From assembly GCA_027605045.1 (NCBI GenBank), contig JAQFWX010000015.1, positions 1,117,877 to 1,181,876 of the forward strand: 64,000 bases of DNA, given 5' to 3'. The position numbers and the translations under genes are program-made. This stretch comes from Phallus indusiatus. Its lineage: Eukaryota > Basidiomycota > Agaricomycetes > Phallales > Phallaceae. The notes under the pieces were generated by a model. The model did not search any database and was not told the origin of the DNA. It saw only the letters and a program-made list of their open reading frames with translations. Below, in pieces: positions 19,343-45,940 of the stretch; the first letter of the stretch is position 1; each line of letters starts with the position of its first letter.

Positions 19343-19741
19343 TGTTAGGGCTACTCAGCTCAGGCTAGAGGGAGGGGATCCTAAGATAATATATTGCGGA
19401 AAACACTAACTACTCACCTAGAGGGAGGGGATCCTAAGAGAACAAGCTTAGGGACCCTCACTCTAGGGACAGCGACTATATACATGAAAAACGATAGCGC
19501 GGCGTGCGGCCCTGACACAGCTAAGTGCTAGGCGCCCGAACCGAACCTAAGCGACGTGATGTCACGGGCATCACGCCGAGTACGAGCGCGCGACGCGCGC
19601 GAGTAAAGAAAGTGAAATAGAGGCAGAACGAGGAAACGGAAAATGGAAGTAATGGACGGGAAATGTAAATGAAATAGAAATAAATATATACCGATGATAA
19701 TAAATAAGGAAAGTAAGGGGACGCGGTAGCGTACCCTGACA
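19343..19741 (-). repeat. LTR of A1 (3' LTR)
   Basis: 399 bp, identical by eye to 25165-25563. It contains two direct copies of a 22-nt CTAGAGGGAGGGGATCCTAA block (19364-19385 and 19418-19439), 54 bp apart. Confidence 0.95.
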
Positions 19742-19752
19742 CCATCCCCCCT

Positions 19753-22700: not shown

Positions 22701-23696
22701 AAGTTCTATCGGGTGATCCCACTTCTTCGACTGCGGCAACGAATCGAATGACTCCTTCGAGAAAATGTCGGCAAAGTCGTGGAACATCTCTGGCACGATG
22801 TCCCGAAAACCCTTGGGAGCTGGTGCGTCTGCGTTGTTGGCGTGGGCCTGAGCCAGTCGCTGGGAGATAGTCTCGGTGGCATATATGCGGTGAGTGTCGG
22901 GCTCGTCGGGTAGCATTGATATCGCGAACAGTCGATCACCCTCTTCAATCTCAGACTCGACATCAACCAGGTCTGGTATATCAGGATCATCGGCCTCAGT
23001 GTTGTCGAGCTCTGGTAAAGGTGCGCGTCGGATCTGTTGGAACGCGCGCTTAGAGAGCTTACCCGCTGGCCAGCGTGGAGCACAAGACCGACAACTGGGG
23101 CTGCAGCGCATGAACTCCACTTGACCAGTTGTGTAGTCTATGACGGGATTGTGAGCCTTGAACCACGGCAGCCCAAATAGGACGGGATACTTGAGCGAGG
23201 TAACGGCGAACAAGGTGCGTTCGGAATGATCCCGAAATCGAACAACCAGGTCAACGACGTGGGTGATAGAGCCAGCGTGGTTGGGCGTACCATCAACGTT
23301 GAACACGGGAATTGGTTTAGCAAGACGCACGGAGGGAAGCCGATGTTTCTCGACAAAGTCGCGGTCGAGGAACATACCGCTAGCTCCAGTGTCCAGCATG
23401 GCCTTGCTGTGCAGCAGGGCTCCAGTGTCAACACTCTGTAGTTCCACCGGGATCTCTAGCTTCTGCGTACCAGCAGTAGCTGCGAGTCGGTATTCGCTTG
23501 GCAACGCGCGACGTTGAGAAGGCGACAGCATACATGGAGTTGAAACAGAGCGTGTAGCAGGTGGAGACGATTCTTCGGGTTTAGCAGGGGATGCAGCAGG
23601 GGTAGTTAGATTCGAATCAGAAGTGTCATTTTGTTCGCGATCTATGTACAAAATGTCGAATCTATTAGATGTCGGCAACGAGGGTGCATCGTTCAC
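19753..23696 (-). pseudogene. pol: Pol of chromovirus A1, one frame break in RT
   Basis: The first frame (23696-22275) holds the aspartic protease (LDTGASGMF) and the start of RT (SPVFFIKKKDGSLRLIQDYR). The second (22368-19753) holds the rest of RT (YIDDILIY), RNase H (EADSSDFATGAVL, IHDKEML, RTDHKNLEY), and integrase with its HHCC zinc region (HPGRF ... CDMCL) and the D,D,E core (VDFIVELP, SDRGPQF, HPQTDGQTERVN). A GPY/F region (YLGPFPIVNKVG) and a chromodomain (YKVRWEGYGPEHDQWEPESN) close it. The break is in the conserved F-G-L-T-N-S-P segment: a run of five Ts (22312-22316 as As on the plus strand) where six would keep frame. The same five are present in A2. Confidence 0.9.
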
Positions 23697-25003
23697 TCGT
23701 CGCCGTTTTGAAAATCCTCTACCTCTGCTGCAGCTACAGTCTCTCCCTCTGTCAGAGCAGAGTCACCACGTGTCTGGGCTTCTAGCGCATCTTTCTGGGC
23801 CAGCAGATGCGCGATACTGTCGTCTAATTCCTCGGGTTGAAGATATCGGATGTCATACGCACGAGGGCATTCGCGAGCCCAATGGCCTGCTGCTCCACAG
23901 CGACGACACCTGGTTGATTCTGGGCCAGCACGTCGACGGGCAGCGTCAACGTCCATCGGATCATGCCTAACCTGTGGTGCAGGAGCAGGAGCCGCAGGTC
24001 TTGGAGGCAACGTGGGCACGATTTGAGATGCTGGCCTGGGAGGTGGATAGGGAGGAGCCTGATAGGAAGGGGCAGGGGGCCTCCTCTGGATCTGGAGGGT
24101 CTGATACGACGGAAAAGGGTTGGGGCGAGGTCGATTAATGGGGACAGCTGCGGGATTTGTCTGAGCCGTTCCAGAGCCCACGAGTCGACGGCGAGCAGCG
24201 GTGAAGGCCTCGTTGGCACGCCTGTCCATGTCAAACATGCGTGCTTGCCTGATCCAGCCTTCGTAGTCGTGGAGTGCGGGTCGGTCCTTCATCGTCGCTA
24301 CCAGAGATGCAATTGCCGGGTCTAAACCATTACGAAAGTACGTGTTAATGGCGAGACCTTCCGTAAAGCCAGCGTGCTCAATGAGTACGCGGAAGGCGTC
24401 TACATATTCCTCTACAGTCCTGTTGCCTTGGACATAGCGGTTGGAGTAGAGGGTGTTGATGGCGTCTTCTTGCTCGGATTGTGGAAAGAAATCGGCCTTG
24501 AATCTTTCCCGGAAGGCATCCCAGTCAGCGAAGGGCTTCTCTCCTCTTTGATACCTTTTCAGCATAGATTCGCTGAAGGTAAGGGCGCGACCTTCGTTCA
24601 TGTACGACATCGCCCAGCCGATCTTGAGTTCATCAGTCTCGAAATCGCGACTGCATATACTCATGTAAAACTCGACAGTGTTCCAAAAGGCGCGACCCTT
24701 GGAGCGATCTCCGTCGAACGAAGGAGGTACAGCAGGTCGGGTATTTCGGGAAGAACGTGAACTGGCTTGATGCTCAGGAGCCGGTGGTTGTCCAGACGAG
24801 GACGCGTCGCCCACAGGGGAGTTTTGGGTTGGAGCAGCTCTAGCCGCGTCTCGGATGCTCTGCAGCACCTCAATCATCTGTGAGGCCTGGGATTCCTGTC
24901 TTGCCAGGCGGGCATCCATTTCCGCGAACTGCCGCATAATAATAGTCGCCACATCGTTGAGGGTGACGAGTGGGGGTGCAGAGGGTGGAGGAGAAGAGTC
25001 CAT
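23693..25003 (-). CDS. gag: Gag of chromovirus A1
   Basis: 436 residues from the ATG at 25003 (MDSSPPPSAPPLVTL); the longer upstream frame has no supporting context. A helical N-terminus (VATIIMRQFAEMDARLARQ) leads into the capsid retrotrans-gag region (RAFWNTVEFYMSICSR ... WDAFRERFKADFFPQ ... YVDAFRVLIEHAGFTE). A proline-rich linker follows, then one CCHC zinc knuckle (CRRCGAAGHWARECP), which binds the element RNA. The stop overlaps the start of the pol frame, which lies in the -1 frame. The frame is intact and the same length as in A2. Confidence 0.92.
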   Translation of the reverse strand: MDSSPPPSAPPLVTLNDVATIIMRQFAEMDARLARQESQASQMIEVLQSIRDAARAAPTQNSPVGDASSSGQPPAPEHQASSRSSRNTRPAVPPSFDGDRSKGRAFWNTVEFYMSICSRDFETDELKIGWAMSYMNEGRALTFSESMLKRYQRGEKPFADWDAFRERFKADFFPQSEQEDAINTLYSNRYVQGNRTVEEYVDAFRVLIEHAGFTEGLAINTYFRNGLDPAIASLVATMKDRPALHDYEGWIRQARMFDMDRRANEAFTAARRRLVGSGTAQTNPAAVPINRPRPNPFPSYQTLQIQRRPPAPSYQAPPYPPPRPASQIVPTLPPRPAAPAPAPQVRHDPMDVDAARRRAGPESTRCRRCGAAGHWARECPRAYDIRYLQPEELDDSIAHLLAQKDALEAQTRGDSALTEGETVAAAEVEDFQNGDE

Positions 25004-25151
25004 GAGAGAGAGAAAGGAAAATGGGGTTTTTAAGATGGAGCAGAGGGGTCGGTTATAGACGGGACTCGAGGGAAAATACGACACTGCGATAGTCGGTGTC
25101 GAGCGATTTTTCGATAGCGAGTGTCGATAAAAACGGCCAGTCTGCGAGTGG

Positions 25152-25162
25152 AAGCTTGTTCT
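25152..25162 (-). promoter_or_regulatory. Self-complementary primer-binding site of A1
   Basis: AGAACAAGCTT on the minus strand, two bases inside the 5' LTR. It is the exact 11-nt reverse complement of AAGCTTGTTCT in the same LTR. It does not look like the 3' end of a tRNA, so priming by the folded-back 5' end of the element RNA, as in Tf1, is expected. Confidence 0.75.
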
Positions 25163-25164
25163 AC

Positions 25165-25563
25165 TGTTAGGGCTACTCAGCTCAGGCTAGAGGGAGGGGA
25201 TCCTAAGATAATATATTGCGGAAAACACTAACTACTCACCTAGAGGGAGGGGATCCTAAGAGAACAAGCTTAGGGACCCTCACTCTAGGGACAGCGACTA
25301 TATACATGAAAAACGATAGCGCGGCGTGCGGCCCTGACACAGCTAAGTGCTAGGCGCCCGAACCGAACCTAAGCGACGTGATGTCACGGGCATCACGCCG
25401 AGTACGAGCGCGCGACGCGCGCGAGTAAAGAAAGTGAAATAGAGGCAGAACGAGGAAACGGAAAATGGAAGTAATGGACGGGAAATGTAAATGAAATAGA
25501 AATAAATATATACCGATGATAATAAATAAGGAAAGTAAGGGGACGCGGTAGCGTACCCTGACA
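25165..25563 (-). repeat. LTR of A1 (5' LTR)
   Basis: 399 bp. On the minus strand it carries a TATATA box (25304-25299) and, 33 nt further, AAGCTTGTTCT (25271-25261), the predicted RNA start. It ends two bases before the primer-binding site. Confidence 0.95.
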
Positions 25564-25596
25564 TAAAGCTGCTGAGAGAACACGAGCACTCGACAT
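25564..25596 (-). pseudogene. First 11 codons of split host gene 2
   Basis: The ATG at 25596, in the strong context GCCACC-ATG, begins MSSARVLSAAL and hits the A1 LTR after 33 nt. Its last five bases (CTTTA) are the target site whose partner is at 46379-46383 beyond A2. Joined to 46384 the frame continues RNGTFSEIRLVFEDH and then splices normally. A MITE lies 34 bp upstream of the ATG. Confidence 0.72.
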
Positions 25597-25630: not shown

Positions 25631-26022
25631 TAAGGCTGTTCACGGGTTATGACCTGCGGGTTTGGGTACCTGTTTTCAGGTACCCTTGGTCACCCAGACC
25701 CAGACCCGCACCCTTGCGGGTTTTGCCCACGGGTACCCGCGGTTTTAAGCGCCATACCCGCACCCGAAAAAAACCCGTTTTTTTTTGGGCACCCGCGGGT
25801 TTTTTGGGGTACCTGCAGGTACCCGCGGGTTTTCTATATAAAAATTTTCTGAAATTTGATGTTCAAACCCGCGGGTTTTGCAAAAAAATTTCAAAACCCA
25901 AACCCGCACCCTCGGGTCTTAAGCGAAATTAAACCCGCGGGTTTGGGTACCTGAACCCGCGGGTATTGTGACAGGTACCTGTCACAGGTACCCGGGTATA
26001 CCCATACCCGTGAACAGCCTTA
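25631..26022. mobile_element. hAT-type MITE, copy b
   Basis: A second copy of the 12514-12904 element, differing by a few substitutions, with the same terminal inverted repeats. It has an exact 8-bp duplication CTCCAATC (25623-25630 and 26023-26030). It sits between the divergent starts of split gene 2 (ATG 25596, minus) and the Plavaka-like gene (ATG 26117, plus), so it probably lies in their shared promoter region. Confidence 0.88.
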
Positions 26023-26116
26023 CTCCAATCGCTGAGTAAGCCACGTGAGGTAACGCGCACCCTCGAACTTTGAAGAACTCTGAAGTGGTCAACCAGTGCA
26101 CAGTTGTGAAAATATA

Positions 26117-27848
26117 ATGAGTAGTTTGGATCCGGGTGGTAAGATATTCCAAGAATATTTCTTTATCTTATTGTATTATTTCAGAATTTGAACTGGGTGA
26201 GAGTTTTGCTCGTTGCCGCTTATGTCCAGACATGAAGTGGATGCCAATGGCGAATGCACGCAAGCATGCCATGACTAAAAAGCATCGCGCATGTAACAAA
26301 CAACTCGATTATGTTTTTACAACCAAGACCAATAAAACACGTGTAAATTCGATATCAGGTAGGAGCTTATGCTATCTAATCACTATCAGCTTTTGAGATT
26401 TTGCACTTCATGAATCATAGAACCAAGATCTTGCTATAAGATGCCGCTATCGTTTGATTATGCAAATATCGATGAATCTGCCACATGCTCTCAGCAAATT
26501 GACAATCAGTATCCGCAATTATTCAACCCTTCAATCATGGGTGAACCATTCACGACAGTCCAGCAACAAGTCAGCGACTGTATTGAAGAGTTGGGATTGT
26601 TCCCGTCTTTAGCCGTGGAAGAAGAACTACCTCTGGAGGACAATTGGACGCCAAATGAACCGGAAAAAGACCTTCCATATTCATTACATGGTACGTGTTG
26701 TCTCTCCCTTTATCGTCCCTCTTTAAATGAAATTGTAGATGAGTCAACGCTGCGAAGTGCGCCTAACAGAGCACCTAAGGAATGTGAGAAAGACCAAACA
26801 AAATTGTTGAACCACGGTGAATGGGCTCCATATCCATCTAAAGCGGTATGTGTGCCATATTTTTATCTCTCTCTCTAACTATCTTACAATTATATGTATT
26901 TATTTTGAAGATATTTTTGACCGACCTCTTATTCACCTCCCCCAGGCTAAGGTTTTCTGAAACCCAGAAAAGGCAATCTTACGCTGGGGAAATGATCTTG
27001 GGGCACAAGATGTTCCAACGTTGACTGCGTTACAGAAGGTACAGGAGGCTCTTCGTGCTGCCATTGGCAACCCAACGACAGAGAAACGTACGCCCAATGG
27101 AAATCTCTTTTACATCAATGAAATCAATTCTGCAATCGCCAAGGTTCGTATATTGGTGTCGTTTATTAGGTTTTCTGATTGTTTTTTTAGGATCTTGCAA
27201 ATCCTCTAGTCCGCCCTCATTTGATCTTCTACCCCCAGCGGTTTGACAACGGCATTATGTCGCAAACATGGCATGGCGCAAAATGGTTGTCCGAACTGCC
27301 AGATGACATGCTTACACCAATGGCAATTCATCCGAATGGGCAGCATTTCTACGTCGAAGAATTATGTATGTGCCAGGACGGTTCATTGTTCATACCACAA
27401 AAGTGGTTTCTCAGGGAAGGAAATAGGCTATGGGCGAGTGGGGTAGATGTCAAGGAAACACCGGTGAGCATCGCACGGCAATTCTTCTTTCATTTATAGC
27501 TCAAATAATTATCACAGGCTGGACTACTTGTCGACACTCAATGTATCAACGAATATGCGCTTGAAGATTTACAGTTCAATTATCTCAGATTAGAAGAGCA
27601 AAAAGAAATTAAATTTTCTGGTATGGTTGATCTCGCACTTGTAAATAATCTCACAGGTCACGGCTCTTCTAGATGAATCATCCTCGTTTGCTGAAAAAAT
27701 GCCCAATCACAAACGTGTTTTGGCTGCTGGGAGACCTTACTACACACTCCCAGTTATGCTTTTCCTTGACGATGTGTCAGGAAATGTCTCAAAGCAATGG
27801 AACAAACATAATGTTTGTTATATGTCGAACGCCTCCCTTCCACGCGAA
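26117..27848 (+). pseudogene. 5' half of a Plavaka-like transposase gene
   Basis: ATG 26117 and introns 26139-26184, 26359-26420, 26691-26738, about 26846-26910, 27144-27190 and one near 27464-27517 join exons in frame. An N-terminal zinc-finger-like C-x2-C...H-x5-H segment (CRLCPDMKWMPMANARKH) is followed by FLTDLLFTSPRLRFSETQKR, YVEELCMCQDGSLFIPQKWF and VMLFLDDVSGNVSKQWNKHN. I recognise this order and the last motif from fungal Plavaka transposases, whose catalytic core lies further downstream. Here the gene is cut by the LTR of element B after SNASLPRE. One base is missing near 26985 (between RFSETQKRQS and the WGNDLGAQDVPT block), and the join near 27610-27660 is also out of frame, so it was probably already dead or the sequence has indel errors. 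Confidence 0.65.
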
Positions 27849-28167
27849 TGTAACGGATCCACCGTATGCGGTGGATTGAGTATATGCCACTTGGGCATAT
27901 GCAGAGGGCTTCGCCCTCTGCAGTAATTACTATTAGTACTTCTAATAATAGAGGCGCTTAACGCCTCTGGCTCGCCGTGACGCGGCGAGCCATTATGTAA
28001 TAACTGTACATTAGTAGTAGTTACGCGCGTGCTGATTCAGCACGCGCATTTTGTTTTTACACCATAATAATACAGCACCCTTGGTCTGTTATATTGGTGT
28101 GAGGACTACAGCGTGATAAAACTTGTGTACCGTACGCGGTACACTATAAAAAGTAACGAGCGTTACA
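27849..28167 (+). repeat. 5' LTR of element B
   Basis: 319 bp made largely of consecutive perfect hairpins: 27857-27876 (8-bp stem), 27882-27900 (7), 27900-27922 (10), 27968-27992 (10), 28025-28047 (10), 28125-28144 (8), plus shorter ones. Confidence 0.93.
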
Positions 28168-28252
28168 TCTTTTTTAACACCAAAGGCGTTAAAAACAACC
28201 CGCCGCTGTATTAAGCAAGCGAAATTAACCCTTCCTATTACAGGAGGATTCA

Positions 28253-31200
28253 ATGGCTCCTACTACCAGGAGTCAGAGTGCACCAGATCGTGGTACACCT
28301 GATTCCAATCAGCCTGACCCACCCGGGCCAGTGCAAACCGAAAATCCCGACCCGTCTAGGGAAGGAACCCTCGAAGGAGAGTCATCCACATGGGAGAGAG
28401 TGGATGCATCAACACAAAATCCCACTCGTCCTGCGTCGCAGACGATGGAACATCAGCCCCAACTCGCTGATGAAGAAGATGAGGACGTAAAGTCCGTAGC
28501 ATCTGGTCGCTCCAGACTTAGCGTCAGGAGCGACAGGTCCATCCGAAGGGACGAGACGATGAACGCTGTTCACGCATCGTTACTCGATGGCGTGAGGAAC
28601 GGGAATATGTCCCCGTCAGAACTGCAGAGACTAGCTCGATTAATCGAGAATGTCAACGCAGGAGTTGAAAACCCCGAGCCAGAGCCTGTTACCACGGGCT
28701 CTGACAGGGACCAAGTCAGGACAACAGACTTGTCTCCTGAAGCAGAGCCTGCACGAGCACGCTCTGACAAAGGAAAAGCAGAGCGGTAGACCCGCCTGCA
28801 CCAGGTACGGGATCTACTCGCCCTAGACCAGCAGGGCCGACGAGTCGCCTTGCCTATCAATTCACAAACCCAGCCCCACAAGCTAGGTTTGCTACACCGA
28901 CGGGACCGACATATGCCAGTCCGTCACCAGCGACAGCTGGTAATTCCCAATCCCCTGAGCCTGCACCAACAGGCACCAGACAACGTTCCCAGAACGTTAC
29001 CCCAGGACCGAGTACGCGTCCTGATAGACCTCCTACTCAAGGAGCTACAGCATATACAGCTCCTAGAAACCCCGGCCCCGAAATAGAGGCTGGCAGAGAA
29101 ACAGTGAGACGAATGCACCGTTTCACAAGACAACCGCCTCACGAGTCTGACGCGGTTGGTGACTATATCGATACCGAGATAGCCACGCGACTGGTGAACC
29201 AGTCGCGAAATGGAGCACCCCACGAGAGGATGCTGAAGTGGTCGCCCAAGCTGCCCTCGAATACCAGAGGATAGCAAGGCTACTCTCCGACAGAGCAATC
29301 CGTACGCATGCACGGGCTGTGGAGACGGCCACTAACGCGCTCGAGGAAGCTGTAGCAGGCTCTCTCGAGACTGACACTCCCAACGAGCAGCAAATGCGGA
29401 TCATCCAAGATAGGATCCGCATCGCGAGGGACGCGCGTATGAACGCGGTCCGCCATGCTCGTGTGCTTGAAGGTGGCTATAATGCCATCACTGGCGATAG
29501 GATCCCATCGCCAGACCCAGCCACAAGCTCAAGTCGTCCAGACGACAGAGCATCACCCCTGGCAGACAACTGCCAAGGCAAAGTGCCGAGCCCAATGGGC
29601 AGAGGCAAGCATCTGCTAACCCAGCAGAAGCACCACGTATCGATCCATATGATGGATACGCTCGTCGACCACAGTATGGCGAGGATCTCCGCGCCACACC
29701 GTTCGATGAGGAACGTGTTGAAAGGTTTGACCCTTTCAACGACGACGCCCAGTACTTGAGGGCGTCATAGCCATGGTTCAAGAAGCCCTGATTGCAAACA
29801 GGGATATGATGCCAGGCAACTCGCCCCTTGCGAAAGCAGGAGCGAAGATAGGGCTCCTGCCCACATATAGCGGCTCGTCCAGAGCCGAGGACTTCGACAA
29901 CTTTGTGTCGGGTCTGTTACGCTGGCTACGCGTAAACCACCTGCTTGGAGAAGTCAGCCAAGCAGAGCAACTCTCCTTTCTAGGCATGCGCCTAGAAGGG
30001 TTGGCACAAGAGTGGTTCACCCAGAACGTGGAACGAGGTACTCGTCCCATGCATGAGTGGACCCTAGTCCCCGCTTTACGGAGACTACACGAACGATTCC
30101 TCCCACCCCACTCGAGAAGTGAGGTGGCGATCCAGTTCGAACGCGAACGGCAAGGATCGCACTCTGTACACGAATACATGAGTGCGTTACTCACGCTAGC
30201 CAACAGACTAGCGCACCCTCCTGATGATTATACATTCAGGAGGAGGTTCCTTGATGGGCTGAACCACAGCCTCGCCGCTGAAGTAGCATTCAGAGGCGGT
30301 AGTCCTGAGCAGATGTCTGCTAAGGAACTTCTTGCACTCGCCATCCAAGTAGAGGAGGCGTTCAAGAAGTGGAGGTCGATAACGGCCTCCCAAGGAAGCA
30401 CTACCCGTCCAACGGGTAGTAGTGGCAGTAGTGGTAGTGGCAGCAGCAGCAGCCACACCAACTTGGCCAGACAAGCGCATTCAAACAATATGCGCTTGAA
30501 CCAGAGGAACCAAGGTCCCTCTGCGCGTCCTCATGAGACGCGAACTAATGGCAATTCCCCATTGGGGAATCGCCCCTCGAGCTCATCAAGCTCGAGAAAT
30601 CATAACTCGCAGCCCACTAGGACTGCCCCAACTAGTACGAACAATCGCACTAGCACTACCCCTCCCACGTGTTTCAACTGTGGGCAGGTGGGACATTACA
30701 GAAATGCGTGCCCCAGACTGAGACAGGTACGAGCCAATGTGGGTCGTATCGAAGAGGTTGAAGAGACCTCTGGCGAGACATCGAACGATGCCCCGCAGGA
30801 GAACGTGGAAGACCCCACAGCTGAACAAGCTGTGGAGGAAGAGGTGGCCCAAGACGAGCCCACCAACGACCCCGTCGAGGACGACGAGGGCATCCAATAC
30901 CAATGGGACGATGATGACAATGGTCCCAGTGTATACATGCTCCTCACAATTGGTGACGAGTATGAGGAGCGCAGACTGCACTTCGCGGTCCACAAGTCAT
31001 CGCCATTGGATGACAATGAGTCCTCGCTCGCTACGAGCAAGGAACCACTCTATGACCATACGGCTAGAGTGAGCTCTCGTGCCCCAACACGAGACAGAAA
31101 CGCATCGAGACCCATTGAGGGTTTCTGGCCAGTCAATGGCCAATTGGCCCACTGCCTAGTCGACAGTGGATGCCAGGGGATGATCATGTCCCCTCATTTC

Positions 31201-31647
31201 TCTCTTGCCACCGGGGCAAGAACCTTCAAGCTCGACAAACCTGTCGTGCTGCAGCTGGCCGTTAAGGGCAGCAAGTCTTCCATCCAGTATGGAACGTACA
31301 CCCGAATCCAATTCGGAGGTATCGATGTCCAAGAGTACTTTGACATCGTCAACATCGATCACTATGATGTGATCATTGGCGTCCCATTCCTGAGACGCTA
31401 CAACATCTGCCTGGATTTCAGCAGAGGTACAATCACCCGCGACGGCGAGGTGATTGACACCAATCACCATGTGATTGGACACGCTCCTGAAACAGGAGCG
31501 ATGGTGCTAGCCAGCACCCAACATTCCAGCTCCTCCGTCCCTGAGATGACGGAAGAGAATATCCCAGCACTCATCGAGTACTGGAAGAACAAGTACAGTG
31601 ACCTGTTCGGTCCTGTCCCTTCCCGACTTCCCCATTTCGGGAAGTGA
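28253..31647 (+). pseudogene. gag: Gag and protease of element B, frame-broken
   Basis: ATG 28253 (MAPTTRSQSAPDRGTPD) opens a Pro/Ser-rich frame that ends at 28787. The reading then continues in other frames (PAPGTGSTRPRPAGPTSR; VVAQAALEYQRIARLLSDR), with at least three shifts before the long frame 29773-31647. That frame holds a capsid-like region (SRAEDFDNFVSGLLRWL ... PMHEWTLVPALRRLHERFL), a CCHC knuckle (CFNCGQVGHYRNAC) and a protease with the active-site triplet D-S-G (CLVDSGCQGMIM). The D-S-G in place of D-T-G is tolerated in retropepsins. The frame ends at a premature stop just after LPHFGK, where one missing base would let it run on into RT. Confidence 0.8.
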
Positions 31648-34600
31648 ATCACCAGATTCCTCTTATTGAGCCCAATAAGAAGATCCGGTACCACCTTCCC
31701 AGGTGTCCGGATGCGCTCAGCGCTACTCGCTGAAAAGATTCAGCGATACGTAGCTGCAGGCTGGTGGGAACCAACTGTAGCTACACAGGCAATCCCTATG
31801 CTTTGCCTGCAGAAACGAGCCGTAGTCCTAGCACTACGGACCGTGTTCGATCTGCGCCTGCAGAACGAAAACAGAGAAGGACGTAACGCCCTTCCCTGAC
31901 CAGGAAACCATCCGCCAGAACGTGGCGAGACACAAATACAGATCAAAAATTGATCTGACTGAGGCGTACGAGCAAGTACGCATAGTCCCAGAGGACGTCC
32001 ACAAGACGACCTTTGCCACCATCTATGGCACTTTCAAGAGCCATGTCATGCAGCAAGGAGACTGTAATGCCCCATCGACGTTTCAACGTCTGATGACTCA
32101 CATATTTAGGGACTGCATCGGTCGTTCGACGGATGCATACATAGACGACGTGTTCGTCTATTCAAACACAATAGATCTGCATCAGCAGCATCTAGAGAAT
32201 GCCTTCTCGCGTCTGCGAGAAGCACAACTTTACCTAAGTAGTCGTAAAGTTGATTTGTACTCTAAGCGACTGGAGTGCTTAGGCCACATCATCGACGATG
32301 ATGGCATCCATCCCGATCACGAGAAGATGGACAAAATACGTGAGTGGAGAACTCCACGCACGTATAATGATGTCCAGAAATTTCTGGGCCTCGTACAATA
32401 CGTTGCGGCATACCTACCAGGGGTAGCCGCATACACTACACCACTATCAGGGTGTACGTACAACAACAGACCGTTCGTATGGACGCCGTTGTTGAACAAG
32501 TGCTTTGATTCAATCAAAGCACTCACGCGAAAGGCTCCTATCTTGAAGCCTATTAACGTGGACGACCCAGATCCAATTTGGGTCGTAACCGACGGCTCTA
32601 AATGTGGCGTCGGTGCCTATTATGGGCAAGGGCCTACATGGCAACGTAGGCCAGCAGGGTTTCTCTCGAAGAAGTTCACCCCTGCTCAATACAACTACCG
32701 CACCCATGAGCATGAGCTCATCGCGGTACTTGAAGCCTTCCTCAAGTGGGAAGACAAACTACTAGGGCGTAGATTCACCCTAGTAACGGACAACGAGGCC
32801 ATGGTCCACTTCAAGACCCAGCCTCGCATGTCACCGCGTCAAGCACGGTGGTATGAATACCTGTCTCGCTTTGACTACGAGACGATTCATGTCAAGGGCG
32901 TCACTAACAATGTCGCCGATGGCCTCTCTCGTTATTACGAAGAGGACACTCCGGATGAGGTTCACCCTCCGGAGGTATACGTCAATGCTGACGTTAGACT
33001 TGATCCCGAAGGGGATCATCTTCCCATCGAAAGAAGGGATGAAGTGAGAGTGAACGTTATTACACGTTCACGAGTACGAGAGGAACCTCGAGTTGAAGGT
33101 CCCTCAAATACTACACCTTCTGATATTACAGAAGCGCAATCCGATGAGGATATACTTGCTCTAAGTGCAGAGCAAGACAGCAAGCTTCTTAAAGCCAAAA
33201 TTGAGGGCTTTGCTGAATTCACCTCGCTGATACAGCAAGGTTATCACAAGGACCCAGTATTTAAGCTGGTTCTTGCCAACCCGAACGCTCACAAGGCGTT
33301 TGGAATTAAAAATCAACTGATCTTTACCAAGAATCAGTTCCTCCGCGATGTATTATGCGTCCCCATAACGCATTTTACAAGGGGAGGAGGATCACTGAGA
33401 TTATAATCAGTGAGGCCCACCAAATTGTTGGGCACTTCGGACGTTACAAAACGTCTCAGTACGTTAGACAAGCGTACTGGTGGAAATCGATGATTGAAGA
33501 CATCGATACGTTCTGCAGATCCTGCGGAACGTGCCAGACCAATAAAGGGGAGAATAATCACCCCAGTGGTCTGTTAAAACAACTCCCGATTCCCAATAGA
33601 CCTTGGGAATCGATTGGAATGGACTTCGTCGGTCCATTACCCGTTTCAAACGGCCACGACTTCCTATTCGTCGTGATTGACAGACTGACCTCTATGGTTC
33701 GTCTGATGCCAACCACCACCAAGCTGACCGCCAAGGGCACAGCCTGGTTATACCTCAGTGAAGTCGTAAGACTCCACGGTGTCCCTGACTCAATCGTGAG
33801 TGACAGGGATGCACGATTCACTGCCAAGTTCTGGCAGGAACTGCAACGCCTAATGGGGACACGATTGCTCATGTCCACGGCGTTCCATCCGCAAACGGAT
33901 GGATCTACCAGCGAGCCAATCGCTCGATTGGCCAAATACTTCGTTCCGTGATACAGAACGATCAAAAAGATTGGGCCGAAAGGATCCCAATGGTGGAGTT
34001 TGCTATTAATAGCAGCACCAGCGAAACCACTGGTTTCGCGCCGTTTGAACTCAATTACGGCTATCTTCCCAGTTTGGGAAGGAAAATTGAGACGAACACC
34101 AAATTCAAAGGTGTTCAACACTTTGCTCAACAGGCAAAGTGGAATCTCATGATAGCGCATGACGCTATCATAGCCAGTCGCGTTAAACAGGCTCACTACG
34201 CGAACAACTCACGGCGCGATGCACCGGAGTATAAAGAGGGTGACCTCGTCTATCTGTCGACGAGGAACCTCAACCTCCCCAAGGGGAGAGTTAAGAAGTT
34301 GATCCCGCGTTATGTGGGACCATACAAAATATTGTCCGCTAAAGACAATATCACAGTGAAACTTGAGCTCTCTGAGGAGCTCAAGCAACGTCGCATAAAT
34401 CCCGTATTTCACGTGGATTTGATTAAACCTCACATCGCTAATGACGACGAGAGGTTTCCACGCCGCGATACACTCACGGCGTATGATTTTGGACAGCCAG
34501 ACGATGCTGAATGGCACGTCGAGGAACTCCTAGCTCATCGCTGGAGTGGAACTCGCGAGAAAGATCTCGAGTTCCTAGTCCAGTGGACCCTTGGGGATAC

Positions 34601-34811
34601 CACTTGGGAACCTTACAGTAACTGTAAGGACTTGCAAGCTCTAGACGAGTACTTGCAATTACGAGGCGTAAACGAGCCTCGGCAGCTGCCACGACTATCC
34701 AATCACGGAGAGTCGCGGACCAGCAACAAGCGCCCAGATCCCACTCGGGATCTGCTTGAAGATCCCACCCACAGGGATCCACTGGCACTTCACTGCTACG
34801 CGGTGAGGTAA
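31648..34811 (+). pseudogene. pol: RT, RNase H, integrase and chromodomain-like end of element B
   Basis: Two or three frame breaks lie between 31648 and 31922. The long frame 31922-33406 then carries RT (YRSKIDLTEAYEQVRI, TDAYIDDVFVYS) and RNase H (VVTDGSKCGVGAYYG, HEHELIAVLE, TLVTDNEAMVHF). A further shift leads to integrase (33355-33951): an HHCC region (GHFGRYKTSQY ... CRSCGTC), then GMDFVGPL and VSDRDARFT. At the third catalytic residue the Glu codon is reduced to two bases (33910-33911), which breaks the frame. The end (33948-34811) carries a GPY-like region (RYVGPYKILSAKDN) and a divergent chromodomain (EFLVQWTLGDTTWEPYSN). As read, no active integrase can be made. Confidence 0.85.
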
Positions 34812-34891
34812 TTTTCACTTGGGCGCTCCATGAGGCCGCCCAAGTATATAACCCAAAAGTCCGTTCACGGTCTTTTCTCCTCAACACCCCC

Positions 34892-36644
34892 ATGCCTGAC
34901 AGCAAGGGAAAGCAACGCGAACGATCACGCTCGCGGTCGCCTACGCCGCAACCTGTTAGTAGGTTCAAAAAGCAGAGGCTCAACTGGCCCTGCAAAGGTC
35001 CGAATGGACCTTAGACGCGATGGACGGATGCATATCCGTCTATCATAACAATGATAGTTGCACTGCGTGCAACGACTTTGCCAGTCACCTGGCAGGCCCC
35101 GCTGGCAGCGGGCAATCATCCTTGACCATGATATGGTCAAGCAGGCCGTCTACAAGGCCTTTCCCTTCATAAGGAGGGAGTACTATCATCTAGACGAACG
35201 TCTAGAAGAAGCTGAAAAGGACGTCAAGTCCTTGACAGACCACCTCGACGATGCGAATCGTCGTATCTGCGAGCTGAAAGCTCGCATTGCTGAACTTGAA
35301 CGTTCAGCGTCGACGGCAGGCCCGTCGACTACCCCATCGACCTCCAAAAAGCGGTCGAGAGACCAGGCCGATAAAGCGCCTGAACCATCCCAGGCAGCCC
35401 CTTTGCCTGATATTTTCAACGACATGTCGTCTGACGACGACATGGAAGACATAGTCGATGATAACGACTATGATGACGACGCCTCCATCGCGTCGTCCAC
35501 CAAACGCAAACCTCAGCGTACCTACGCTGATGCAACCAAGGCATCGGGCTCTCGCGATGCTGCCCCGGTTTCTCCAAGGAAACCCTCTGGTCCGTATCCA
35601 CGGACCAAGCCAGGATGGGACTCCAACCGGGACCCATGGCCCTTCTTCGTCAAGGGCTTCGACCCCACTGTTAGTGGGGATCACTCTCTGGTGCCTGGCA
35701 CCCCCAATCCTACTGCATGGTATAACACCTGCAGCCTCGACGAACCATTGTTCGTCGAGATTGGAACCCGGGTTTGGACCGACCCCCCGGTGTTCACGTA
35801 CCCCGATGACAGGGGGGTTCACATGCGTATTTCATACGCATGGACTCGCTGGCGCAGATCCATGAAGGAGCGTCGCCTGGCGAGAAAGACCGCCAAGCTT
35901 GAAGCTATGGAGGCTGCCGCCAACCGTCCATCGGTGGTGTCTATCTCGGGAGAACTCATACACCCCGAGATCAAGTATTTAATCAATACTTGGAATGCGG
36001 ACCCTAACCAGGTCCTCCTTACATCCGACTAATGTCGGATGGATCATTAAACCCTCAAGATGTTGAGGTGTTCGCATGGCTCAAACGAGTCACACGTACT
36101 CGTGAAGTACGTGCCAAGTTCCTCGAGAAGGCGGCTGAGTGCCTCCTCGACCCCGCACTTACTGTGTGGGAAGAAGTTCTCGGTGGTAAGGGTAATTCCT
36201 CCACCCACCTGCCTTCCACGCTTATGGAAGGCTACACTGCTCCTTCGAGTGCAAATCCCCCTCCTCCATTACCATAGAGGAGGTGATTCGCTCCATGCAT
36301 GCCAATGGAGCGACGACAAGACGCGTCACTGAGGTGATCGCGCCCCTTCTCCAACGATACGCCAATGGAGAAGATGTCAATCGCATCGCGCATGACTATC
36401 GCGTGCGCCGTGGACTGGATCGTCCAACAAAAAGGCGCGTACGACTCAGTCGTCCGCCCCCGCCGTCCATGCGTCGGCTTCACCTGCCAGCATCGTGGCA
36501 GGCCAGCCTAACAAGGTCTACTCCCCGTCCGTCCCAATTCAGATGACGGACGAGGAATTGTTAAGGCCCCCTGAGGACCTTGACGCGCCGCATCCGAGTG
36601 CCTCGGAGAGCATGGAGATTGACTACAGCAATCCCTCTGACTGA
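34892..36644 (+). pseudogene. Extra ORF (ORF3) of element B downstream of pol
   Basis: ATG 34892 starts MPDSKGKQRERSRSRSPTPQ, an Arg/Ser-rich head. After a one-base shift the reading gives AEAQLALQRSEWTLDAMDGC and a C-x2-C/H segment (SCTACNDFASH). The long frame to 36032 has a coiled coil (YYHLDERLEEAEKDVKSLTD), an acidic patch and a globular-looking region (WPFFVKGFDPTVSGDHSLVP ... RISYAWTRWRRSMKERRLAR). Further shifts lead to MSDGSLNPQDVEVFAWLKRV and a clear acidic end (ASESMEIDYSNPSD, stop 36642-36644). No transmembrane segment or signal peptide is visible, so it is not envelope-like. I know no family for it. A nucleic-acid-binding or chaperone role is only a guess from the RS-rich head. 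Confidence 0.6.
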
Positions 36645-36706
36645 TTACAGTCAGACGCCTCCTCTTCGCGATCCCATGACTTGGAGTCCAAGTCACAAGG
36701 GGAGGA

Positions 36707-37026
36707 TGTAACGGATCCACCGTATGCGGTGGATTGAGTATATGCCACTTGGGCATATGCAGAGGGCTTCGCCCTCTGCAGTAATTACTATTAGTACTTC
36801 TAATAATAGAGGCGCTTAACGCCTCTGGCTCGCCGTGACGCGGCGAGCCATTATGTAATAACTGTACATTAGTAGTAGTTACGCGCGTGCTGATTCAGCA
36901 CGCGCATTTTGTTTTTACACCATCATAATACAGCACCCTTGGTCTGTTATATTGGTGTGAGGACTACAGCGTGATAAAACTTGTGTACCGTACGCGGTAC
37001 ACTATAAAAAGTAACGAAGCGTTACA
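36707..37026 (+). repeat. 3' LTR of element B
   Basis: 320 bp. It differs from the 5' LTR by one A/C substitution (CCATCATAATAC versus CCATAATAATAC) and one extra A near the end. It is preceded directly by the purine tract at 36697-36706. Confidence 0.93.
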
Positions 37027-38070
37027 TTAATCGTAGAATTGACTGAACGGTTCGGATGTCCGATGGAATTGATGCTAACAATCTTTCACTTCTAGCAGGG
37101 GAGTACCCAGCCAGCGAAAGCGTTGTCCTGATGACGCTACTCAGCAGCCTGACGAAGAAATTGCAGCGATCCCTTGAGACATGACAAGAAGTATGTAGCA
37201 GCGCCGGGAGAATTAAAGACTGGAAAGCAATTATTTGAGGGAGAGTGGAAGGGAATTTTATGTCCATGAACCGTGCTATATATTTGGTAATTAGCAATGT
37301 TTGTTTTATACGAAACATACTAAACGCGCACCAGTTGAGATAGTCAATCCACGGCCCTTATCGTCAAATGTAGCCCGATTTGTGGAAGGGTTTTTCCGTT
37401 GATAATTCCATGCAATCTCCTTATAGCTATCGATTTTTTTGAGACCGTCCAAAATAAGAGGAAGGAGAGAGGGTCGAGATGAACCCAATTCTTCCAACGC
37501 GTCGACAGCTTGGTACATCTCGCACAGCCATTCTTCAAAATGGAGTAGCGATTCGTTCTCCAGTTGACCCCTCTTCAGGGTACACGGACCCAGATTAATG
37601 GGAAATGTGGTTGTTAAGGAAGATATGAAAGGCTGGTCAACTGTGGGCGGCGAAACGAATTCGAGAAAGCGAGGAGGTTCGAACGACGACAATGCGATTG
37701 AGAGATTCGTTTTATAATGTAAAAGATCCTCCGAAATCGGATCTTTTTCCTGAAGAGACTGAATTGACGTGGTGTGAGGTTTTTCAGCAGAGACCTGACA
37801 TGTTGCCGGGTCATTCGATAAAACGGGAGTGTCAAGGCTTCTGGAGTGAATACCACTCTGAGCCTGATGCTGGTGCAAGTGAATATGCGCATCACCACTC
37901 ATCAGATCACTTGAACCGCTGGGTTTCTTTGGTTGGCGATTCTCTTGAGAGTCTCTTTGACGATGTCGACTCCATGTCGTTGGGGGGATGAAGAATCCTT
38001 GCACCCTTTCTCCTGTCTCTGGATCAGTATCGACTAATAACTGACATTCAGAACATAGGCAAAGCTTCAT
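37027..38070 (-). pseudogene. 5' half of a Tnp2 (CACTA)-like transposase gene
   Basis: ATG 38070 opens MKLCLCSECQLLVDTDPETG with a C-L-C-x2-C...H pattern (SRHRQRD) typical of the N-termini of Agaricomycete Tnp2/CACTA-like transposases. A Ser-rich linker follows, then FEEWLCEMYQAVDALEELGS. An intron (37276-37331) leads to FPSTLPQIIAFQSLILPALL and IPSDIRTVQSILRL, again a familiar order in this family. The catalytic part should follow but is replaced by the 3' LTR of element B at 37026. There is no target-site duplication. What remains is about 329 residues, in frame. Confidence 0.6.
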
Positions 38071-38727: not shown

Positions 38728-40171
38728 TTAATCTTCTTCTAGGGGCCGGTTAATCAGTTTTACGAGTGCGCCGAATTTGCCACATACCAACTTTTCTCGG
38801 GAATTTAGGATAATAAGGTTATCTAATGTGGTACCGAGGATCTGAACTTCCAGGTAAGAGCGCGGATGGACCTCTGGACCTTGACCAATGATCATGTCAA
38901 TGTACAGCACTTCGGCACTATCAGCAGTTTGAATTAGATCGGCTTGCGGTAGTAAATTCCGGACCGGGACTTCATTTAAATCGACTGAAGGGGTCGGTTT
39001 CATTGGCATCTTCCCTTTTCCTTTGAATGTCGAGACGACTTCATCCCCCGTACGCGTCTTCATTTTTTTTTTGCTCCTGACAGATATCTCATGACCTTCA
39101 AATAAACCAGTAAAATAATTAACGTACGACATAGATGGTTTCATATCCCCCGTATGTGAAACACGTTTCCTAGATCATCGTTGAAAGAGAATACAAAAAC
39201 GTCAAGGAGGCATACCGTTTTTGGTGACTGGAACGATCATCGTCACTGTAAAAAAACAATTTGGCGGATGTACATGTAATGTTGAGAGTGAAAGATCATA
39301 CCTTTGTTCGATTTTTATCACAGGATGCTTCATACTTCGTAATTGCTTTGCGGCGGAATCTCGCTTGCGAGAAATCGGCCTCAATGATTTTCCCTTTGTG
39401 CTCGAGACATGCCTTGAACTTGAGCTTTGTAAATGCGTCGCGGGAGAACCTCTCTTGCGGGAATTTGACCTCAAAGATCTTGTCTCTGTACTTGGAGTAT
39501 CCGACTCGGCTATAAGTGATGTCGACATCATGATCAATATAAGACAAGACGAAAGCACTCACATTCGTACTTGTCTGAGTCCTCTGAATGATATTTTTCC
39601 TCCGGATCAACATCGACTGAGTCAACTGAGAAGGATGATGATATTAGAAAAACGCGGCGAGAGAGATTTGCTCTCACATTCATCCGTTCGCGCTGAAGGG
39701 GACGTGGGAGATTTTGAAGACGAATTATCCCTGGTAACGGAAGCGTCGGGACCAGCTAATGATATTTAAGCCTTGAAGAACAGGGCAAAAATAAAGCTTA
39801 CATCCATGCGATCCCGTGTCCTTGAGATTGAGTCTCGACGGAGATTGAATCTCCTTAATCTGAACTGTAGGCACTACGGCGAGGAAAAATAAATACGGAA
39901 CAACTCAAAAAGGACGACAAAGGTACATTGCTCTTCTGTGCACACCATCAAGGACCTTTGATACCATTTAGGTCAAATTGTTCGTATAGGGCTATTTAGT
40001 TGTTACATACCAAAGCCCGTCAATCTTGAATGTCAATAACCGCTTCACCGGTAAACTATGAGACAGTTCGACAGACACAACCTTTTAGAGTCTTTGAGCA
40101 CCAGTAATTCATTAAAACGAGAACCTTACCTCATGCTGTATGAGTTCACAGATTTGAATGGGTGATGGCAT
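38728..40171 (-). pseudogene. 3' part of split host gene 1
   Basis: The reading resumes at 40171 (MPSPIQICELIQHE, to 40130, GTAAGG donor). One or more unresolved introns follow to a Ser-rich exon near 39750 (DNSSSKSPTSPSARTDE). GTGAGA and GTGAGT introns then join, in phase, FDSVDVDPEEKYHSEDSDKY, a block with two related units (SLRSNSRKRGSPATHL and SLRPISRKRDSAAKQL), and SDDDRSSHQKR. The final exon runs to 38728 (SYLEVQILGTTLDNLIILNS ... KLINRPLEED). The acidic, Ser/Arg-rich middle suggests a nuclear protein. The C-terminal ~110 residues look folded but I do not recognise them. The phases are consistent from exon to exon, so the gene appears intact apart from the break at the A2 LTR. Confidence 0.65.
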
Positions 40172-40176
40172 GTTAT

Positions 40177-40569
40177 TGTCAGGGTACGCTACCGCGTCCC
40201 CTTACTTTCCTTATTTATTATCATCGGTATATATTTATTTCTATTTCATTTACATTTCCCGTCCATTACTTCCATTTTCCGTTTCCTCGTTCTGCCTCTA
40301 TTTCACTTTTTTACTCGCGCGCGCGCTCGTACTCGGCGTGATGCCCGTGACATCACGTCGCTTAGGTTCGGTTCGGGCGCCTAGCACTTAGCTGTGTCAG
40401 GGCCGCACGCCGCGCTATCGTTTTTCATGTATATAGTCGCTGTCCCTAGAGTGAGGGTCCCTAAGCTTGTTCTCTTAGGATCCCCTCCCTCTAGGTGAGT
40501 AGTTAGTGTTTTCCGCAATATATTATCTTAGGATCCCCTCCCTCTAGCCTGAGCTGAGTAGCCCTAACA
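40177..40569 (+). repeat. 5' LTR of A2
   Basis: 393 bp. It shares with the 3' LTR of A2 a CACTTTTTTACTCG junction where both A1 LTRs have CACTTTCTTTACTCG. It also lacks a few bases of a CG-rich run. Confidence 0.95.
40430..40473 (+). promoter_or_regulatory. LTR core promoter: TATA box and predicted RNA start
   Basis: TATATA at 40430-40435 lies 33 nt upstream of AAGCTTGTTCT (40463-40473). That 11-mer is the reverse complement of the PBS. In Tf1-type elements the RNA 5' end is the primer, so 40463 is the expected transcription start, at a normal distance from the TATA box. Confidence 0.65.
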
Positions 40570-40571
40570 GT

Positions 40572-40582
40572 AGAACAAGCTT
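40572..40582 (+). promoter_or_regulatory. Self-complementary primer-binding site of A2
   Basis: AGAACAAGCTT, two bases after the 5' LTR, pairs perfectly over 11 nt with the predicted RNA 5' end (40463-40473). The pairing stops exactly there on both sides. Confidence 0.75.
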
Positions 40583-40732
40583 CCACTCGCAGACTGGCCG
40601 TTTTTATCGACACTCGCTATCGAAAAATCGCGCTCGACACCGACTATCGCAGTGTCGTATTTTTCCCTCGAGTCCCGTCTATAACCGACCCTCTGCTCCA
40701 TCTTAAAAACCCCATTTTCCTTTCTCTCTCTC

Positions 40733-42043
40733 ATGGACTCTTCTCCTCCACCCTCTGCACCCCCACTCGTCACCCTCAACGATGTGGCGACTATTATTAT
40801 GCGGCAGTTCGCGGAAATGGATGCCCGCCTGGCAAGACAGGAATCCCAGGCCTCACAGATGATTGAGGTGCTGCAGAGCATCCGAGACGCGGCTAGAGCT
40901 GCTCCAACCCAAAACTCCCCTGTGGGCGACGCGTCCTCGTCTGGACAACCACCGGCTCCTGAGCATCAAGCCAGTTCACGTTCTTCCCGAAATACCCGAC
41001 CTGCTGTACCTCCTTCGTTCGACGGAGATCGCTCCAAGGGTCGCGCCTTTTGGAACACTGTCGAGTTTTACATGAGTATATGCAGTCGCGATTTCGAGAC
41101 TGATGAACTCAAGATCGGCTGGGCGATGTCGTACATGAACGAAGGTCGCGCCCTTACCTTCAGCGAATCTATGCTGAAAAGGTATCAAAGAGGAGAGAAG
41201 CCCTTCGCTGACTGGGATGCCTTCCGGGAAAGATTCAAGGCCGATTTCTTTCCACAATCCGAGCAAGAAGACGCCATCAACACCCTCTACTCCAACCGCT
41301 ATGTCCAAGGCAACAGGACTGTAGAGGAATATGTAGACGCCTTCCGCGTACTCATTGAGCACGCTGGCTTTACGGAAGGTCTCGCCATTAACACGTACTT
41401 TCGTAATGGTTTAGACCCGGCAATTGCATCTCTGGTAGCGACGATGAAGGACCGACCCGCACTCCACGACTACGAAGGCTGGATCAGGCAAGCACGCATG
41501 TTTGACATGGACAGGCGTGCCAACGAGGCCTTCACCGCTGCTCGCCGTCGACTCGTGGGCTCTGGAACGGCTCAGACAAATCCCGCAGCTGTCCCCATTA
41601 ATCGACCTCGCCCCAACCCTTTTCCGTCGTATCAGACCCTCCAGATCCAGAGGAGGCCCCCTGCCCCTTCCTATCAGGCTCCTCCCTATCCACCTCCCAG
41701 GCCAGCATCTCAAATCGTGCCCACGTTGCCTCCAAGACCTGCGGCTCCTGCTCCTGCACCACAGGTTAGGCATGATCCGATGGACGTTGACGCTGCCCGT
41801 CGACGTGCTGGCCCAGAATCAACCAGGTGTCGTCGCTGTGGAGCAGCAGGCCATTGGGCTCGCGAATGCCCTCGTGCGTATGACATCCGATATCTTCAAC
41901 CCGAGGAATTAGACGACAGTATCGCGCATCTGCTGGCCCAGAAAGATGCGCTAGAAGCCCAGACACGTGGTGACTCTGCTCTGACAGAGGGAGAGACTGT
42001 AGCTGCAGCAGAGGTAGAGGATTTTCAAAACGGCGACGAGTGA
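40733..42043 (+). CDS. gag: Gag of chromovirus A2
   Basis: 436 residues, same sequence as the A1 Gag as far as I can see, ending in the overlap with pol (TGA at 42041-42043). It contains the capsid region and the CCHC knuckle near 41830. The leader between PBS and ATG differs from A1 by small indels only. Intact. Confidence 0.92.
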   Translation: MDSSPPPSAPPLVTLNDVATIIMRQFAEMDARLARQESQASQMIEVLQSIRDAARAAPTQNSPVGDASSSGQPPAPEHQASSRSSRNTRPAVPPSFDGDRSKGRAFWNTVEFYMSICSRDFETDELKIGWAMSYMNEGRALTFSESMLKRYQRGEKPFADWDAFRERFKADFFPQSEQEDAINTLYSNRYVQGNRTVEEYVDAFRVLIEHAGFTEGLAINTYFRNGLDPAIASLVATMKDRPALHDYEGWIRQARMFDMDRRANEAFTAARRRLVGSGTAQTNPAAVPINRPRPNPFPSYQTLQIQRRPPAPSYQAPPYPPPRPASQIVPTLPPRPAAPAPAPQVRHDPMDVDAARRRAGPESTRCRRCGAAGHWARECPRAYDIRYLQPEELDDSIAHLLAQKDALEAQTRGDSALTEGETVAAAEVEDFQNGDE

Positions 42044-45000: not shown

Positions 45001-45940
45001 GATCTCTGACAGGGGCCCCCAGTTCGCGTCCCGCTTCACGCAGGAGCTTTCTAGGCTCCTTGGCATACGGCTTGCACCCTCTACTGCATATCATCCTCAA
45101 ACCGATGGTCAGACAGAACGCGTCAATGCAGAAGTCGAGCAGTATCTTCGGCTCTTCACCTCAGAGCGACAGGACGACTGGGACCAGCTGCTGCCCATGG
45201 CTGAGTTCGCATACAACAACCATGTGCACTCAGCCACGCGTTCGACACCTTTTGAGCTCGACACTGGACGACATCCTCGTATGGGATTCGAACCGCAGGT
45301 TGCCGACTCGAAGATCGAATCTGTCAACGAGTTCAAGACGCGTATGGAATCGACGATAGAGGAAGCCAAGGCCGCTATAGCCAGGTCGAAAGACGAGATG
45401 GCCAAGTATTACGATCGGAAACACATCCCAGCACCTGAATACAAGGTTGGCGACAAGGTATACCTCGATTCGAGCGACATCCGCACCACCAGACCTTCCG
45501 CCAAATTGTCGCATCGGTACCTAGGCCCATTTCCGATAGTCAACAAGGTCGGATCCCATGCATACAGGCTACGTCTACCACTGTCGATGTCAAGACTCCA
45601 CCCCGTCTTCCATGTCGGGAAGTTACGTCCAAAGGTCGAAGATACGATCCCGGGTCGTCGTGTTAAGGCTCCACCACCTCCTGAGGTCAGAGACGACGGT
45701 GAACACTACGTCGTGGAACGGATTCTGGACAGTCGTGTCTTCCGGAGACGACTCGAGTATAAGGTGCGTTGGGAAGGCTATGGTCCCGAGCACGATCAGT
45801 GGGAACCCGAGTCGAATATTGCAGCCCCAGATCTCATTAAGGAATTCCACCGCGAACATCCGAGTGCGCCACGCTCGATAAATGGCCTTCTTTTCCATCG
45901 TCGCCTCGGTTTGATTTTTCTAAGTTACAAGCGTCATTAG
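42040..45940 (+). pseudogene. pol: Pol of chromovirus A2, several frame breaks
   Basis: Same domain order as in A1. Breaks relative to a full frame: five Ts at 43417-43421 in RT (shared with A1), loss of two Ts at about 43870, one T at 44683-44685 in integrase, one C at about 44767-44770, and one C near 45903 after the chromodomain. A three-base loss near 42230 removes one residue without shifting frame. Protease, the RT catalytic YIDD, the RNase H residues and the integrase D,D,E are each still readable within their fragments. Confidence 0.9.

Follow-up and report, generated by a model that had tools for sequence, protein, structure and literature searches.

The window analysed here is a 64,000-nucleotide stretch of Phallus indusiatus DNA (GenBank assembly GCA_027605045.1, contig JAQFWX010000015.1, positions 1,117,877 to 1,181,876 of the forward strand). 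Near its middle lies element B, a Ty3/gypsy-like long terminal repeat (LTR) retrotransposon that is saturated with short, perfect inverted repeats, in coding and non-coding parts alike. The parts of the element and the individual hairpins referred to below are as follows (window coordinates):

27849..37026, + strand: element B, Ty3/gypsy-like LTR retrotransposon with SH3_Tf2-1 and chromodomain
27849..28167, + strand: 5' LTR (TGTAACG...CGTTACA), the densest hairpin stretch, with 7 stems of at least 7 bp
29773..31644, + strand: gag-protease open frame (Pfam: Retrotrans_gag, zinc knuckle, RVP_2)
31832..33403, + strand: reverse transcriptase (RT)-RNase H open frame (Pfam)
33951..34808, + strand: SH3_Tf2-1 and chromodomain stretch, taken as the C-terminal part of the integrase (Pfam)
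35058..36029, + strand: third open frame (ORF3), 324 aa, the hairpin-densest coding part of B
36707..37026, + strand: 3' LTR, carrying the seven hairpins of the 5' LTR
27900..27922, no strand: 10-bp LTR hairpin, one of three 10-bp LTR stems
27968-27992 and 28025-28047: the other two 10-bp hairpins of the same LTR
32499..32523, no strand: longest listed stem, 11 bp at a loop of 3 nt, or 12 bp counting a 1-nt loop
32631..32652, no strand: hairpin shortened in the window copy by a 3-nt deletion

Between the LTRs, the Pfam matches follow the order gag, protease, RT, RNase H and then chromodomain (the scan covered B on either side of 33404-33948, where the integrase core would be expected). On account of this domain set, B is judged to be a Ty3/gypsy chromovirus-like element, and its group would presumably be that of the Tf1/sushi-like Ty3/gypsy chromoviruses of fungi. 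With fungal Ty3/gypsy chromoviruses it has in common the LTRs, gag with zinc knuckle, protease, RT, RNase H, SH3_Tf2-1 and chromodomain, and it differs from them in the extra 324-aa frame after pol (35058-36029), for which no Pfam match was found. The open frames were used as read, none being mended, and their lengths differ among B copies.

A scan for perfect stems (loops of 3-15 nt) recovered 120 of at least 7 bp, 70 of at least 8 bp, 22 of at least 9 bp and 9 of at least 10 bp in B, against 4.6, 1.15, 0.35 and 0.1, respectively, in dinucleotide shuffles of the element (mean of 20), and hairpins with stems of at least 7 bp covered 28.6% of it. The saturation described in a first-pass annotation of this DNA, made from the letters alone, was thus confirmed, and all 15 stems that it had listed were found to be perfect, with the same positions and lengths. 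Its count of about 13 stems of 9 bp or more was too low; the 22 found here include three in each LTR, and the three long stems that it had placed within one LTR are the 10-bp stems 27900-27922, 27968-27992 and 28025-28047. The longest listed stem (32499-32523) falls within the sequence encoding the RT_RNaseH_2 match, and at the position of the shortened hairpin 32631..32652 two other copies (L048 and L074) have a perfect 10-bp stem with the loop gcaaa. Element A, present as two near-identical copies in opposite orientation that flank B (19340-25580 and 40168-46381), had been described as lacking such hairpins, and indeed each copy contained 6 stems of at least 7 bp, against 4.1-4.25 in shuffles. 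The outer flanks of the window had 25 against 12.1 and 18 against 11.4 such stems, and the stretch between A and B had 15 against 1.8, an excess that owes mostly to a different, GGGTACC-type palindromic repeat.

The codon-preserving shuffle proposed in the first-pass annotation was carried out by permuting synonymous codons 150 times in five coding segments (5.8 kb, loops of 3-13 nt), and it did not reproduce similar counts: the segments hold 69 stems of at least 7 bp, whereas the shuffles averaged 5.8 and never exceeded 13, and 43 of at least 8 bp, where the shuffles averaged 2.05 and never exceeded 5. The pol region of element A, used as a control, had 1 stem, with 1.6 expected. Frame by frame, the stems of 7 bp or more numbered 18 in gag-protease (1.7 in synonymous shuffles), 15 in RT-RNase H (1.2), 13 in the integrase C-terminal stretch (0.7) and 16 in the 324-aa frame (1.5). 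Since the codon-preserving shuffles fall so far short, coding is not the cause of the excess. Per kb, the LTR carried 21.9 stems and ORF3 16.4, followed by the integrase part (14.2), the 3' region (13.4), RT (10.8), gag-protease (10.1) and, lowest, the leader/gag-N stretch (8.7); all eight parts tabulated lay between 8.7 and 21.9 per kb, coding and non-coding alike. The hairpin excess is therefore independent of codon use and spread over the LTRs and all genes. Nothing was found in support of chance, composition or codon bias as its source, an explanation that we regard as next to impossible, with dinucleotide, local-composition and codon-preserving shuffles all far below the observed counts, element A near chance, and the outer flanks at 1.6-2.1 times their shuffles.

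Relatives of B were sought in the same genome, where scoring covered 40 of the 124 candidates at the DNA level and 87 of the 495 at the protein level. The scored relatives comprised a group that was mostly 96-100% protein-identical and a sister group at 73-74%, with a few between these or at 70%. Thirty B-family loci (L039-L068) carried 5.8-13.4 stems per kb, 27 of them at least 9.6, and the three below this value contain non-homologous sequence. Four sister-group loci carried 3.7-4.2 stems per kb (6.5-10.6 times chance), about one third of the density of B, at about 70% nucleotide identity (over 3.57 kb) and 74% protein identity. Unlike B, 30 loci of the same genome detected with the RVT_1 model (several copies per family, taken irrespective of superfamily) showed no saturation, having 0.3-2.3 stems per kb, and six of these, when checked against shuffles, were at 1.4-3.5 times chance. 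Hairpin saturation is thus lineage-specific and common to the near-identical copies: it is a graded property of the element lineage atop a mild general excess. Beyond this genome, no relative of B was found in the viral contigs searched, the genome contigs searched contained two distant relatives (31-38% identity, hairpins at 2.5-3.5 times chance), and a protein search with gag-protease gave at least one homologue among the best 8000 candidates by shared words, which were the ones scored.

The minimum folding energy difference (MFED; 350-nt fragments, plain dinucleotide shuffle) was taken over 25 fragments of B; the + strand averaged 41.7%, with a minimum of 25.5%, and the - strand averaged 32.2%. 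Corresponding + and - strand values were 42.1% and 33.9% for a second B copy, 17.0% and 14.6% for a sister-family copy (L069), 2.6% and 4.8% for the first copy of element A (A1), and -0.5% and -1.0% for 12 kb at the left end of the window. With synonymous shuffles as the reference, four B segments had a + strand MFED of 32-40%, against 17-19% for three loci of the sister family; six other RVT_1 loci had 4.5-12% (-0.4 to 8.5% on the - strand), and the pol region of element A had 0.5%. Published values are 15% for SARS-CoV-2, 7 to 9% for hepatitis C virus (HCV) and, as the highest among vertebrate RNA viruses, 23.4% (PMC7642675). B lies above this top value, in a comparison that is approximate because the virus study shuffled with NDR and a plain dinucleotide shuffle was used here; the NDR shuffle, as described in PMC7642675, likewise keeps mono- and dinucleotide frequencies, by a different algorithm.

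As to the anatomy of the hairpins, the excess was distributed over stems of 5-8 bp, dropping sharply at 9 bp, and was strongest at loops of 3-4 nt, fading past about 14-20 nt and gone beyond about 20 nt. Even with loops of up to 45 nt allowed, 113 of the 131 resulting stems (at least 7 bp) spanned no more than 29 nt. Imperfect stems were enriched too: 34 with one mismatch (total length of 9 or more) were found, against 1 in each of three shuffles. Sorted by the + strand mismatch, stems with one internal mismatch numbered 38 for C.A (3.2 in shuffles), 11 for G.T (2.3) and 40 for all others (11.7), and under the codon-preserving null 23 (3.3), 6 (2.5) and 26 (10.2), respectively. Among mismatches other than C.A and G.T, 9 of 46 could be mended by a single synonymous change, compared with 12.4 of 27.4 in shuffles (loosest setting). 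Lasting mismatches thus sit mainly at pairs that synonymous change cannot mend, as if pairing and protein coding were pulling against each other, and there are signs that protein coding limits the structure of B. When B was compared with homologues (120 of RT, 120 of the integrase region), deviant codons made up 45 of 230 in hairpin arms and 104 of 499 outside them, with no clear excess of unusual residues in arm codons. A search of 27849-37026 with the covariance models of Rfam 15 gave 0 matches at the gathering score.

Stem pairs of B (stems of 7 bp or more) were unchanged in the sister family at a fraction of 0.499, compared with 0.488 for random complementary pairs, so the individual hairpins are not conserved functional motifs. 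The fewer stems of the sister family itself were kept in B above chance (0.669 against 0.499). The hairpins thus turn over, some being ancestral and B having many more. The situation envisaged in the first-pass annotation as telling against it, namely relatives that keep the proteins and lack the hairpins, is therefore found in part: the sister family, with related proteins, has roughly a third of the hairpin density, and it mostly does not share the individual hairpins.

Substitutions within the B family were analysed in 25 copies, five of the 30 loci (L059, L061, L062, L066 and L067), with partly non-homologous ends, being excluded. Substitutions private to one copy (n = 257) were random with respect to hairpins, with 67 losses against 74.9 expected and 16 gains against 15.4 (codon class matched). 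Substitutions common to three or more copies were polarised with outgroups, leaving out 51 of 127 shared sites that could not be polarised. Of the remaining 76, 11 broke a stem of 6 bp or more against 22.6 expected, and 6 created hairpins against 4.9; the expectation here is for random changes of the same type, with codon position unmatched. An unpolarised version of this test, which had given an apparently large excess of gains, was dropped, as it scored losses in the majority lineage as gains. The private changes of young copies (n = 42) included 1 gain against 2.5 and 16 losses against 12.2; they are uninformative on reverse-transcription errors, because mutations after insertion may account for them. 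In the hairpin at 34329-34352, one pair occurs in two complementary states, A-T in 19 copies and G-C in six. Seven copies (L055, L056, L058, L060, L065, L066 and L068) have a differing patch of about 25 nt over this hairpin, which in L055 comprises eight differences between nearly identical flanks, and which is perhaps the result of short-tract recombination between subfamilies.

The closest counterpart among known systems is genome-scale ordered RNA structure (GORS), described as hundreds of consecutive stem-loops with high MFED and with pairings poorly conserved among related viruses (PMC7642675). Similarly, the folding energy of B is far above that of shuffles throughout the element, its structure spans coding and non-coding parts without any tie to gene borders, and its pairings are poorly conserved in the sister family. 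In SARS-CoV-2, single mutations were reported as random and recurrent ones as avoiding paired sites, and the proposed driver is the folded state as such rather than one given fold (PMC7642675); the pattern in B may resemble this, private changes being random and shared ones breaking stems less often than expected, although site variability differs little between stems and the rest. B differs in being a fungal LTR retrotransposon, not a positive-strand RNA virus associated with host persistence, and in having its excess in perfect Watson-Crick stems with G.U pairs avoided. As it encodes an LTR retrotransposon set, B is not a member of the GORS group, and it may work alike.

Since the pattern is GORS-like in being whole-element, lineage-specific, protein-limited and not conserved by pair, with transmitted changes that seem to spare stems, our tentative preference, held with a little less than even confidence, is that element B was shaped by selection for pervasive single-strand structure. 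Across many transposition cycles, single-stranded copies that were more folded would have left more descendants, and synonymous and other tolerated changes would thereby have turned much of B into a row of short local hairpins. Selection would then favour the paired state as such rather than individual hairpins, in line with what has been proposed for GORS of RNA viruses. The folded molecule could be the genomic RNA or its cDNA, and the benefit could be protection in the particle or avoidance of recognition by the host, for instance through RNA silencing. Structure of the GORS kind has been linked to evasion of innate recognition in mammalian cells (PMC3950689), and the fungal counterpart of that pressure could be RNA silencing. 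Several observations fit such selection poorly. The hairpin excess is only local. Stem pairs have a GC content of 0.560, with 0.564 expected from composition, and by inspection the tri- and tetraloops of B show no evident preference, so that the stems do not look optimised for folding energy. The predicted number of G.U pairs is about half of that in shuffles on the + strand (37-62% in four segments) and about two thirds on the - strand, and G.T mismatches of the + strand are, unlike C.A, little better tolerated than others; neither is what selection acting on RNA of the + strand would lead one to expect. On that strand, short-range pairs are raised 1.6-1.9 times over shuffles, and with stems that are GC-neutral and poor in G.U, the signal is one of Watson-Crick complementarity at short range, not of folding energy. 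The paired substitutions within stems for which the first-pass annotation had proposed a test did not emerge: there was no significant covariation between B and the sister family, with 19 of 40 double-changed pairs complementary and 38% expected (p = 0.14; p values are uncorrected, with several tests on the same data). Informative sites among the 25 copies occurred at a rate of 0.034 in stems, 0.043 outside hairpins and 0.066 in loops, so variability is reduced only slightly in stems relative to the sequence outside them.

Much of this would also be expected if the nascent strand, during reverse transcription or host replication, folded back and copied one of its own arms, thereby perfecting quasi-palindromes. 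By this quite conceivable route, the RT of B would be unusually prone to such copying, purifying selection would remove the cases that harm proteins, and the hairpins would be a by-product. Strict Watson-Crick pairing, GC-neutral stems, short spans and an enrichment that declines with loop length all agree with it, as does the milder excess in the six other RVT_1 loci, which fits a general process. Hairpin density is also high in parts that are probably under little coding constraint (LTR 22 per kb and ORF3 16 per kb, against 10-11 per kb in gag-RT), although the leader/gag-N stretch is nonetheless the lowest. Template switching is among the mechanisms considered for the palindromes in mitochondrial coding genes of nematomorphs (PMC6649704), which like the inverted repeats of B are perfect, lie within protein-coding genes and are gained and lost dynamically; according to that report they reach 284 bp and show no excess of imperfect repeats, whereas the stems of B are 7-11 bp, very numerous and accompanied by an excess of one-mismatch stems, and the two differ in host compartment and replication. 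Template-switch correction of quasipalindromes (the subject of PMC8604942 and PMC7202029) can likewise homogenise arms into perfect hairpins, genes included, and in yeast such events were reported in 39 protein-coding genes (PMC8604942). By comparison, the 9 kb of B contain more than 100 hairpins, and no instance of multi-base rewriting was caught there. Hairpins of 8 bp or more that are imperfect in the sister family (n = 20) leaned towards changes in one arm and in adjacent runs (P about 0.03 in two of four measures), a lean that was not significant for stems of 6 bp or more and 7 bp or more. Clustered differences of 29 loci relative to L039 gave no clear case of arm rewriting on inspection, and a seemingly rewritten arm at 32631 in L073 proved to be an alignment artefact of the 3-nt deletion in the window copy. 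Arm polarity was inconsistent: divergence from the sister family at codon positions 1 and 2 (stems of 7 bp or more) was 0.234 in left arms, 0.156 in right arms and 0.160 outside, while comparison with homologous proteins (stems of 6 bp or more) gave deviant codons in 17 of 116 for left arms and 28 of 114 for right arms. Rewriting of left arms as proof of minus-strand fold-back was accordingly dropped, the second test leaning the opposite way. Nor were hairpin gains in excess among the polarised transmitted substitutions, a comparison of low power, and fold-back copying leaves unexplained why only the B lineage is so strongly affected.

Fold-back copying is not preferred here, because a gain excess and clear one-arm rewriting are missing and there is a weak hint only. 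Its strongest form, in which the RT habitually folds the nascent strand and copies it onto itself until the whole element is a chain of perfect hairpins, limited by what the proteins tolerate, is also conceivable, though less likely than not; if true, it would amount to a self-structuring genome, the hairpins being a mutational signature, possibly co-opted afterwards. An improbable variant places the selection on the structure of the minus-strand cDNA, or of antisense RNA, and not on the sense RNA. A + strand C.A mismatch would be a G.T wobble on the - strand, and it is C.A that one-mismatch stems favour under both nulls, with the sister copy L069 leaning the same way at the loosest setting (C.A 24 against 9.9, G.T 11 against 7.6). 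In L069 the lean is gone at the strictest setting (1 and 1), and in B it is partly mutational, since polymorphic pairs within the B family lean to C.A too (C.A:G.T of 27:18 for shared and 37:23 for private), and MFED is higher on the + than on the - strand in B, the second B copy and the sister family. The first-pass annotation had offered selected structure and template switching by RT as alternatives, and both survive; neither is proved, and selection for structure is favoured here over biased copying, with fold-back a close rival. Whichever holds, B exemplifies pervasive structure of a mobile element to an extreme degree. A single genome holds many copies of it together with a less structured sister family and other elements with little structure, so that the origin of pervasive genome structure by selection or by copying, and the handling of a folded transposon transcript by the cell, become directly testable. 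No hairpin-saturated LTR retrotransposon was found among the open-access titles and abstracts that the search listed, subscription papers being mostly outside the scope of that search.

Some further features of B and its surroundings were noted. The protein matches of B that bear a species name were mostly to fungi of the Agaricomycetes, with one to Tilletia. The 5' LTR ends in TATAAAAAG, followed by TAACGAGCGTTACA (28141-28195), and an 8-bp hairpin at 28171-28195 occupies the position expected of the primer-binding site. The two LTRs are identical over their first 217 bases. No target-site duplication was found at B (GCGAA at 27844-27848 and TTAAT at 37027-37031), and recombination between copies may explain the mismatched flanks despite the identical LTR starts. 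A second hairpin-rich repeat lies outside B, at 12477-12892 and 25664-26040 (98% identical over 300 nt), and is built of palindromes of the GGGTACC and ACCCGCGGGT types together with A/T runs. The inverted arms formed by the element A copies are 100% identical over as much as 1.6 kb. Finally, 54339-63464 contains several diverged copies of similar open frames (60-82% identical over 219-300 nt), which by eye are serine/threonine-rich with one hydrophobic stretch.

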